Shown: piece after piece, positions 41,580-63,175 of the stretch
Numbering within the stretch: position 1 is the stretch's first letter
Layout: each line of letters opens with the position of its first letter
Assembly (NCBI GenBank): GCA_009746045.1
Contig: RPFO01000027.1
Location: forward strand, 4,583,177-4,647,176
Source of the DNA: Mesostigma viride
Taxonomy: Eukaryota; Streptophyta; Mesostigmatophyceae; Mesostigmatales; Mesostigmataceae
Reading direction: 5' to 3'
Length of the DNA: 64,000 nucleotides
Notes under the pieces: model-generated
Seen by the model: the letters and a program-made list of their open reading frames with translations, nothing else
Database searches by the model: none
Told to the model about the DNA's origin: nothing
Translations under genes and position numbers: made by a program

Positions 41580-44500
41580 CTGGGGTGGGGAAAAACAGGG
41601 GGGGGTGAGAGGGGGGTTATTGTGATTGATATGTTAGGATTATCCACCTAAGGGTATGTCCTCCACAAAGTCACACACCTGTGGTCGGCAGGATAGTTAC
41701 ATAAGTAGGTGGTAGATGGGCATTACATAGGTGGGCATTACATTAATTAATTAATGAGCACGTGACTGCGTCATGTGGGTGCCAATACAGAGTAAAGGAA
41801 CCTTCAACCCTATATATACATTACATAGGTAGGTAATAATAGTAGTCCAATCACACATGCCCCGATTGATTAGTTGATTACATTTACCCCCCCCCCCCCC
41901 ATGTTTGAGAATGGTGTCCGACCGACCCAGGGCTGGCAATCTTAAAAGTGGAGACCTGTAGGAGGTTAAACCTGAGGACATGACCAGGACTAAGCAGCCT
42001 TACGTACCTAATCAAAATTCGCCCCATACCAGCCCTGTGAACTCAGCCCTAAAATTCCAAAACTCAGAATATCAAAATCTTAATCCTGGGAATCTTAAAC
42101 ATGAGGAGGGGGGAGGGGGGGGAGGGGTTGGGTGGGTTGGGTAGGGTTAGCTAACATCATGTCTGGCTACACCAAATCGCGGACCTGCGGCAGGGCGCCC
42201 GTGGATTCGGTTGTAGGTGATAGTGTGTTTTTTAGGTAACCAATTTTAAATAAGTAATTACTAGCTAAAGAGGATCGCTGTCCTCCCAACGACCCGCCGT
42301 CGCAGCAGGTGGGCTGGTCATTAGGTAGCGGGTGGTCGTAGTCCCATAGCAAAAGTACCGAGGAGTGTAAAGCACCCACAACCAACCGAAACCAACCAAG
42401 CTCGCGACGTCCACAACATCTCGCACCTGCTGGTCTTGGGACCATGGATTGGCGAAACCAACGTATGGAATGATGAGACCAACCGATGGAACGATGAGAC
42501 CAACCGATGGAACGATGAGACCAACCGATGGAACGATGAGACCGACCGATGGAACGGTGAGACCAACCGATGGAACGATGAGACCAACAGATAGACGAGC
42601 AAAGCACTGTTCGGCCGTGGCTCGTGGATGCAAGCACAGACCGCGCCGACGTTCTGGACCCCCCTGCGCATGACGTGCCCCGGCTCCACCTGGTACCTAC
42701 ACTTACTACCCACATCGGGATGCCAGCACCCATGGCTTCCCCAATGCTTAGCGCTTACTAGTCATCGTCAACGTGTATGCACACATCCACAGTACCCAAA
42801 ACATCCACCACCCACTGCGCGGTCCAATGATAAGCATGCCTGTACTACGCATGCGCATGTGTTGTAGCACACATACCCTGTAGTGTGCAAGCACTTAATA
42901 CCTACTCCCCCCGATGGGATGCCAGCACTCACCGCGCTGTCGTTCTGGAACCCTATTCCCGCGCGAGGTGCCCTGACCCACCCTCGCTAGTTACATGAGC
43001 ACCTGCAGGGTTATGCTACTCACCGCGCTCTCATTCTGGAACCCCGCACGCGCGAGGTCTGCCTTGGGCGGCAGGCTGATGTTGTCGGCCGTGCGGGCGA
43101 GCGCCTCCAGAAAGTCGACAAAGGACATGGATGTCAGCCGCCAGCGCGAGTGGATCTCGTCGACCACGGCTGGCCGGCTGTGGATGAACGCGAGCGTGGC
43201 GTCACGGGGGGTGTACGCGCCCACGTACAGCTCTGACACAGACAGCGGCATGATCAACGCATGACGATACGATCGCACACATACAGCATGAGAAGAGGGC
43301 GGCCAGACAGACAGCGTGGCGTGGTGGCGGGTGTACGTGCCCACGTACAGCTCTGGAGGGGCCAAGCATGATAGAATCAAAGCGGGATGATGAAACAACA
43401 ATCTAGAAGCGTTGAGGAGCAGGGGGGTTGTCTGTGCCTACGGCCGGCTCTGCAGGGATATATTAAGTATTTCTTATAAACTGTAAGGAATCAGCTGAGG
43501 TAGAATGAACGCATTCAGCACTACAGAAAGGATGACGGGTGCACGGGGTGTACCCACCCACGCATGGCTCTGTGTGGCAAAGGCATAATGGAGACGATAT
43601 AGGCGCAAGAGGATAAACCCAGCGTACAGATGCTAGCGTTAGAGAGAGAGATGGGTTCACGCACCACAATGTAGCGCTCAGCGGGGAGACAGGCATCGCT
43701 TATTCAAAGGTGTAGTCCAATGTGTAGTCAATGCAGAGTGTAAGAGATCGAGAAGACCAAATCACCGCCGGAACAAACCAGCACGGCGTATACTCTGCAG
43801 GACACTGTCTGGGACCACCCGTATGCTTGCCTTGGCCACAGGATAGGCACACAATGAGCTTGGCCTCACTGCCGCGATCGAGTGTTACCTTAATACGTGA
43901 TGGCGGCACTCACTCAGCAGGCCCAGGTTGATGACCACGCGCACCCACTCGGGCGGATCCACGAGTAGGTTTCTTTTTTCTACTAGAAGTACTATGTCGT
44001 AACAGTATCAATGAGAAAACCTGCGCAGGCCAGAAATCTGAGAATCTGGACTGTGGTAGCTCGAGCCTGACGTTTCTGGTCCGCGCTTGTCGAGTCGCTC
44101 AGGATGATGGGAATGAATGGAGGCGGTAGCTATTATCATAACTGTCACAACAGTGTGACCATCATCATCATTATCGATATCACAACGTACTCAGCAGCCC
44201 CATGTCAATGACAATGCGCGCCCACTCGGGCGGGTCCACGAATATGTTTCATGTAGTCATGATTGCATAGTTATCATCATTGTTCTACTACACTCGGGTG
44301 GGTCCACGAATAAGTTTCTCCTCATTATCATCGCTATTGTATAGTACTCACTCAGCAGGCCCATGTCGGTGACCACGCGCATCCACTCGGGCGGGTCCAT
44401 GAACTTGCCGCCGTGGTTGTCCTGCGTGATGTAGTGTTTGTACGCCGCCTTGAGGAGCGGCTCATTCCTGCGGAACACCATGTCCACGTCCTCGGTGTAG

Positions 44501-63175: not shown

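Follow-up and report, generated by a model that had tools for sequence, protein, structure and literature searches.

Copies of exon edges in the introns of a Mesostigma viride gene, very probably the remains of aged tandem duplications

A minus-strand gene of Mesostigma viride

The window analysed here is a stretch of 64,000 nucleotides from Mesostigma viride (NCBI GenBank assembly GCA_009746045.1, contig RPFO01000027.1, positions 4,583,177 to 4,647,176 of the forward strand), part of a genome of 440 Mb in 2,243 contigs. The beta-tubulin of this genome is 94-95% identical to many from Viridiplantae among the best 120 matches listed, which also include animal, dinoflagellate and other tubulins, mostly at lower identity; this places the genome in the green lineage. 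A gene occupies its minus strand at 41.4-63.2 kb; the gene start lies further upstream, outside the window, and 18 exons (e1 to e18) were fixed within it. The introns of this gene contain imperfect copies of the ends of the adjoining exons together with their splice sites, here called echoes, which are very probably aged tandem duplications of the type named "mirages".

Exons e4 to e18 form a single open frame with GT-AG introns, and this frame stays open down to a stop codon at 41370-41372 (e18 was taken to 41399 in the computations, with no junction affected). The encoded protein aligns with Trebouxia ACH3X1_007263 at 32% identity over 95% of the 529-amino acid query, and the alignment continues across the exon joins from e7/e8 on; e1 has a weak Arm match (E 0.032, below the curated cut-off). 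Judging by the reading frame and the homology, the exon-attached site would be the one spliced at each junction. Next to the window end, within the same gene, lie 5 kb of N (positions 1-5000 of the upstream stretch L002), and in the upstream part of the gene 56 GGTT copies start right beside an exon acceptor (L002 7176-7398). The e11-e12 intron carries about 84 GAC triplets at 49511-49761 (97% matches). The exons are the following:

62969..63175, minus: exon e1 (armadillo-like); exon model, weak Arm match
62180..62296, minus: exon e2; exon model
61321..61672, minus: exon e3, acceptor uncertain; exon model
59755..60699, minus: exon e4; exon model, open frame
57982..58107, minus: exon e5; exon model, open frame
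56807..57271, minus: exon e6; exon model, open frame
55077..55783, minus: exon e7; exon model, open frame
53743..53962, minus: exon e8; open frame and homology across join
52739..52927, minus: exon e9; open frame and homology across join
51129..51229, minus: exon e10; open frame and homology across join
50435..50537, minus: exon e11; open frame and homology across join
49066..49161, minus: exon e12; open frame and homology across join
47834..47926, minus: exon e13; open frame and homology across join
47144..47289, minus: exon e14, echo at neither end; open frame and homology across join
45401..45591, minus: exon e15; open frame and homology across join
44352..44588, minus: exon e16; open frame and homology across join
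43024..43232, minus: exon e17; open frame and homology across join
41370..41579, minus: exon e18, stop at 41370-41372; open frame and homology across join

Exon-edge copies in the adjoining introns

Junction probes made of 50 nt of exon and 20 nt of intron were compared with their own intron, the nulls being 40 same-length samples of non-adjacent introns and 20 dinucleotide shuffles. A same-strand copy in the own intron beat all 40 samples at 23 of the 34 junctions of the 18 exons, and beat the 20 shuffles at 22 of them (e3, despite its uncertain acceptor, was included in this test and in the measurements of copy spacing and decay). At a score of at least 18, one or more echoes were found for 15 of the 18 exons (e1, e3 and e14 had none), at 14/17 donors and 7/17 acceptors. 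The echoes are in direct orientation and adjacent to their exon: at the same score there were no inverted copies at the 34 junctions (0/34), no copies in the intron on the opposite side of the exon (0/32) and no copies of mid-exon probes (0/15). The existence of such copies, which an earlier note on this DNA had described from the letters alone, is confirmed by the two controls that the note itself proposed, shuffled and non-adjacent introns.

Most of the positions listed in that note were recovered: for e16, donor copies at 43908 and 44160 and acceptor copies at 44696, 44792, 44893 and 44989; for e15, acceptor copies at 45665, 45779 and 46008; for e13, an acceptor copy at 48007; for e9, donor copies at 52530 and 52626 and acceptor copies at 53098 and 53220; for e6, acceptor copies at 57331-57563; for e4, the donor array at 59593-59776; and for e11, the donor copy at 50244-50330. 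Those at 44291, 45109, 48367, 48473, 52508, 52599 and 52987 are not separate copies above threshold, although some short similarity can be made out by eye at 44291, 45109, 52508 and 52987. The idea that copies further from the exon are more decayed found no support in the measurements (Spearman rho -0.16, p 0.24). The echoes and arrays of the window are:

62061..62113, minus: e2 donor echo, offset 111, score 31
61919..61953, minus: e2 donor, second echo, score 19
59593..59776, minus: tandem array 30 bp x 6.1 over e4 donor (tandem-repeat scan)
57916..57950, minus: e5 donor echo, score 27
57331..57354, minus: e6 acceptor echo, score 20
57447..57520, minus: e6 acceptor echo, score 22
57537..57563, minus: e6 acceptor echo, score 18
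56557..56638, minus: e6 donor echo, score 27
54829..55091, minus: tandem array 85 bp x 3.1 over e7 donor (tandem-repeat scan and alignment)
53343..53427, minus: e8 donor echo, score 26
53473..53517, minus: e8 donor echo, score 20
53638..53668, minus: e8 donor echo, exon part only, score 19
53220..53264, minus: e9 acceptor echo, score 25
53098..53163, minus: e9 acceptor echo, score 25
52626..52659, minus: e9 donor echo, score 21
52530..52590, minus: e9 donor echo, score 29
52335..52386, minus: e9 donor echo, score 24
51012..51053, minus: e10 donor echo, score 26
50826..50879, minus: e10 donor echo, score 27
50244..50330, minus: e11 donor echo, more than 50 bp of intron flank included, score 69
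50053..50083, minus: e11 echo, exon part only, score 29
49886..49965, minus: e11 donor echo, GT lost, score 27
48944..48976, minus: e12 donor echo, weak, score 18
48007..48095, minus: e13 acceptor echo, score 34
47694..47732, minus: e13 donor echo, score 19
47566..47602, minus: e13 donor echo, score 22
45665..45762, minus: e15 acceptor echo, score 56 (TRF: 113 bp tandem unit at 45549-45814)
45779..45814, minus: e15 acceptor echo, exon part, score 32
46008..46068, minus: e15 acceptor echo, score 43
45242..45330, minus: e15 donor echo, score 61
44893..44959, minus: e16 acceptor echo, AG lost, score 38
44989..45060, minus: e16 acceptor echo, score 30
44792..44850, minus: e16 acceptor echo, score 24
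44696..44721, minus: e16 acceptor echo, score 19
44160..44242, minus: e16 donor echo, score 45
43908..43964, minus: e16 donor echo, score 45
43313..43391, minus: e17 acceptor echo, score 34
43545..43572, minus: e17 acceptor echo, score 18
42927..42975, minus: e17 donor echo, score 29
41658..41725, minus: e18 acceptor echo, score 26

Echoes in other genes of the genome

The search was repeated elsewhere in the genome, as the earlier note had advised, with a sampling of about 300 kb in all. Eleven kinesin stretches (among 129 listed matches) and three tubulin-family stretches were chosen for adjacent exons, not for repeats; L036, a duplicate of L035, was dropped, leaving 13 loci on 12 other contigs (kinesin, tubulin, FtsZ; the FtsZ and gamma-tubulin loci were named by eye and are taken to be such). 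Intron 0 of L031 gave no consistent junction, and the uncertain introns L034.0, L039.0 and L040.0 were kept in the count of 46 junctions. Echoes at a score of at least 18 were present at 8/46 junctions, in 5 of the 13 loci; 12/46 junctions were above the best of 40 other-gene samples, and inverted echoes were found at none of the 46. Our own gene finder, applied to a 200 kb sample and to the window, returned mostly mobile-element or low-complexity frames, and only the hand-checked junctions of two genes were used, presumably a membralin-like gene and an RRM gene (named by eye). In the former 3/7 junctions are echoed, one of them weakly, and four acceptor copies follow each other at intervals of about 100 bp; in the latter 1/4 junctions are echoed. 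Counting the window gene, 16 genes were examined, and 8 of them have at least one echo. Given the 8/46 junctions at other loci, the window gene is rich in echoes but not unique.

Two introns of these hand-checked genes have unusual ends. The membralin-like gene has a likely GC-AG intron (CAG/GCAAGA; L011, position 76448 of the 200 kb sample). An intron of the RRM gene (L021, 175661-176955 of the same sample) starts ATATCCTT and ends AC, and its donor is also echoed; we take it to be of the U12-type AT-AC class by the consensus, no branch-site match having been seen near its end.

Tandem structure, spacing and decay of the copies

Three young arrays are plainly tandem. In the upstream part of the window gene, 6.4 copies of an 88 bp unit (98% alike; L002 5808-6368) start within the final 27 nt of an exon, pass its GTGAGG donor and enter the intron; a kinesin gene on another contig has a 70 bp unit x 2.4 (97% alike) over a donor, and a second kinesin gene, again on another contig, an 83 bp unit x 3.5 (96% alike) over a donor. 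On the strength of these arrays, an echo can be read as one unit of a tandem duplication laid over an exon edge. Older arrays of the window point the same way (30 bp over the e4 donor, 85 bp over the e7 donor, 113 bp over the e15 acceptor), and intron flank was copied along with the exon edge at the donors of e7, e11 and e15 and at the acceptors of e13 and e15. Of the 28 junctions that have a copy (score of at least 19; 51 junctions tested), 23 have their nearest one at a distance of 30-161 bp. Later copies fall near multiples of the first offset at the e16 acceptor (121/247/335/448) and at exon 4 of the membralin-like gene (100/204/308/403), but not at the e6 acceptor or the e9 donor, so that the spacing is not regular everywhere. 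Mismatches between exon and echo number 38/302, 37/309 and 62/311 at the three codon positions (12.6%, 12.0% and 19.9%), as would be seen where a copy decays freely next to an exon whose own changes are mainly silent.

We therefore hold it very probable that the echoes are aged tandem duplications. Short head-to-tail duplications, in the main of about 30-160 bp, would keep arising in the genome without regard to exon edges, the molecular step perhaps being replication slippage or unequal exchange. Whenever a duplicated segment straddled a junction, the intron would gain a copy of the exon edge with its splice site; selection would remove the copies that alter the protein but spare those with which the outermost, exon-attached site continues to be used. 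The spared copies would then decay freely while the exon stays constant, and exon edges could for that reason still be recognised when the intron filler has long since diverged.

Two observations weigh against this reading. The e2 donor echoes, the e16 donor echo at 438 and the e17 donor echo are recognisable only as an exon part with at most 8 nt of intron; as nothing but the exon part is still readable in such oldest echoes, their tandem structure is indirect, and it is the graded series of younger cases that suggests a tandem origin for them too. Moreover, the haplotype-like pair L035/L036 differs by small indels while its array copy number is equal (one 4.3 kb pair). The second member of this pair, the 26 kb contig C622, corresponds to part of contig C2, with 68 mismatches over 4,299 aligned bases; it is probably an alternate haplotype that the assembly retained.

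More echoes at donors than at acceptors

Donors and acceptors were compared at 89 trusted junctions (L036, e3 and the uncertain introns L034.0, L039.0 and L040.0 were left out). Echoes were present at 25/44 donors and 11/45 acceptors (Fisher test, p = 0.0025), and exon-only probes gave 16/44 and 5/45 (p = 0.006). The donor excess had p <= 0.0213 in all twelve probe/threshold settings, these p values being optimistic because junctions cluster in genes and are not independent; inverted matches amounted to 3/89 and 1/89 at threshold 16 with 50 nt of exon, and to 0 in the other ten settings. The window gene at the main setting had echoes at 17/19 donors and 7/19 acceptors.

Reporters in human cells offer a possible reason: the first of two equally strong tandem donors is used, and acceptors have no order preference (PMC6783452). 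The donor excess is as a first-donor rule predicts, since duplication of a donor leaves the correct donor first, and duplication of an acceptor puts an extra site first, without a handicap. Donor-crossing duplications would thus survive more often, the first of several equal donors winning, and acceptors would lack such protection. The human-cell work likewise predicts harmless extra downstream donors and no order handicap for an extra upstream acceptor; its measurements concern donors 2-77 nt and acceptors 2-59 nt apart, whereas here the rule would be extended to another lineage and to distances of tens to hundreds of nucleotides.

This account of the asymmetry has facts against it: outside the window gene the excess is modest (8/25 donors, 4/26 acceptors), in the membralin-like gene it is reversed (0/3 donors, 3/4 acceptors), and it could be mutational instead of selective. 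A mutational asymmetry, with no part for splicing selection, is a serious possibility, if a somewhat doubtful one: the three youngest junction-crossing arrays are all on donors, which could reflect a G-rich, slippage-prone donor sequence, but intron-only probes (60 bp; a copy counted at a score of at least 20 in the same intron, in direct orientation) had copies at similar rates beside donors and acceptors. These rates were 0.33 for the first 40 nt of the intron (n=48) and 0.29 for the last 40 nt (n=48) in 24 introns of three genes, and 0.15 and 0.15 in 23 introns of the 13 other loci.

Duplication throughout the introns

With the same probes, intron interiors gave 0.36 (n=930) in the three genes and 0.19 in the 13 loci. 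Local direct copies were found for 0.305 of 708 intron probes, inverted ones for 0.013, with none among 671 distant controls; the offsets peak at 40-140 bp (median 104). Outside introns, the rate was 0.10-0.20 in three mostly non-genic stretches and 0.05 of 118 in coding exons. Tandem arrays spanned a junction in 3 cases out of 25, against 1.7 expected by random placement (P 0.23; the 113 bp e15 array not counted, with which the figure is 4/26). There is thus no sign of junction enrichment, and a duplication process aimed at junctions is not supported.

Such a process (for example transcription- or splicing-linked breakage copying exon edges into introns) appears quite unlikely on the whole. 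It would fit the exon-including probes, which score at 21/34 junctions against 31% of 166 intron-interior windows (low-complexity excluded), and the position of the three youngest arrays exactly on donors; against it stand the similar intron-only rates at ends and interior, an array placement not significantly above random, and the fact that the excess is accounted for by the slower decay of the exon side, which is what makes exon edges stand out. The proposal in the earlier note that introns lengthen by repeated duplication across junctions accordingly holds in part: there are crossing duplications, they lengthen the introns and the decoy sites are often intact, but nothing indicates a process working specifically at junctions.

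A wider view, somewhat less likely than not, would be that introns in this lineage grow largely by a steady, position-blind rain of tandem duplications of about 100 bp, and that splice-site choice sets which of the junction-crossing ones survive: donor copies would persist, the first transcribed donor winning, and acceptor copies would be weeded out.

Decoy splice sites, assembly and dispersed elements

GT is kept in 29 of 35 donor copies (six of these from one young array) and AG in 17 of 22 acceptor copies. That the echoes are functional, as alternative splice sites or as decoys selected for splicing regulation, is very improbable. The splice dinucleotides are slightly better kept than their surroundings (46/50 and 445/517, a difference given here without a significance test) and four of 25 sites would keep the frame without a stop, but splicing at any of the other 21 would introduce a stop codon in the extra stretch, the first and second codon positions show as many mismatches as an unconstrained copy would, and intron interiors hold local copies of the same kind.

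Mis-assembly, to which the earlier note had thought the pattern might be owed were it confined to this gene, is almost certainly not the cause: tandem arrays are error-prone in assemblies and a run of N lies just outside the window, but the copies are diverged, their offsets vary, and they recur in other genes on contigs of 0.9-12 Mb, including the loci on 12 other contigs. An origin as introner-like or retro-inserted copies of exon ends, in favour of which no point was found, has next to no probability, for the copies carry intron flank and lie in tandem, a 609 bp echo-rich intron stretch (one stretch searched) has no match in the 440 Mb genome beyond its own locus, and no exon-exon joined copies were noticed among the echo alignments, with no dedicated test made.

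Relation to known systems

The earlier note knew of no named process that fits, but tandem repeats over exon-intron boundaries have already been named "mirages" in amphioxus (PMC3087553). That report describes units of 10-72 or 150-160 bp, AG/GT being present in many of them, along with haplotypes that differ in length and splicing that reverse-transcription PCR (RT-PCR) showed to be normal. Common to both systems are tandem units over donor or acceptor, unit lengths of tens of bp to about 160 bp, and a proper exon that is kept. In the echoes, the unit lies over the exon-intron boundary, both 5' and 3' exon boundaries are duplicated (donors more often), the arrays have units of 30-113 bp, and many repeats keep AG/GT. 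On the features examined, the echoes may be filed as mirages. Unlike those of amphioxus, they belong to a green-lineage host, are mostly old and decayed, form part of a wider accumulation of local duplications in introns and show a donor excess; haplotype length differences and RT-PCR are the amphioxus evidence, whereas the echoes are known from sequence alone. Mirages in a green-lineage genome, so widely spread, with decayed copies and a donor excess, were not found in the open-licence literature, in which the word "mirage" was not searched, so that later reports may exist.

Two other systems are related. Intron gain by tandem duplication (PMC4974935, PMC3443670) involves the same kind of event, in potato RdRp across an intron-exon boundary (PMC4974935); those cases create a new intron, whereas the duplications seen here lengthen introns that already exist, with no gain of an intron demonstrated. 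Introner elements (PMC9860276) likewise add intron sequence with splice sites, but they are dispersed repeats, unlike the one echo-rich intron searched here.

Other features of the window

Rfam gave no match above gathering scores over the window. Two near-identical blocks about 3.6 kb apart (21762-22505 and 25341-26085) share their 75 bp and 152 bp satellite arrays, with similar open reading frames before them and N between, and look like a recent segmental duplication. TCCC/GAGG tetranucleotide arrays at 18821-20350 and 14983-15189 (394 and 52 copies) are open in several frames. Frames resembling a long terminal repeat (LTR) retrotransposon lie at 30831-36040; their reverse transcriptase part matches PF00078, and we presume, by eye, that gag, protease and integrase are also present.

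Significance

Transposons and designed reporters are the usual means of studying intron lengthening and the disregard of wrong splice sites. In this case the genome itself has made many copies of correct donors, of various ages, within its introns, and donors and acceptors differ in what has survived. The system is suited to measuring the share of tandem duplication and of mobile elements in intron growth, and, genome-wide with RNA data, to working out rules of splice-site competition outside animals and yeast; gene finders are warned that strong false donors occur in a coding-like context inside these introns. If a position-blind rain of duplications sorted by splice-site choice is indeed at work, the echoes would amount to a natural experiment on competing splice sites, dated and genome-wide, in which exon-attached sites compete with up to six near-identical downstream donors.

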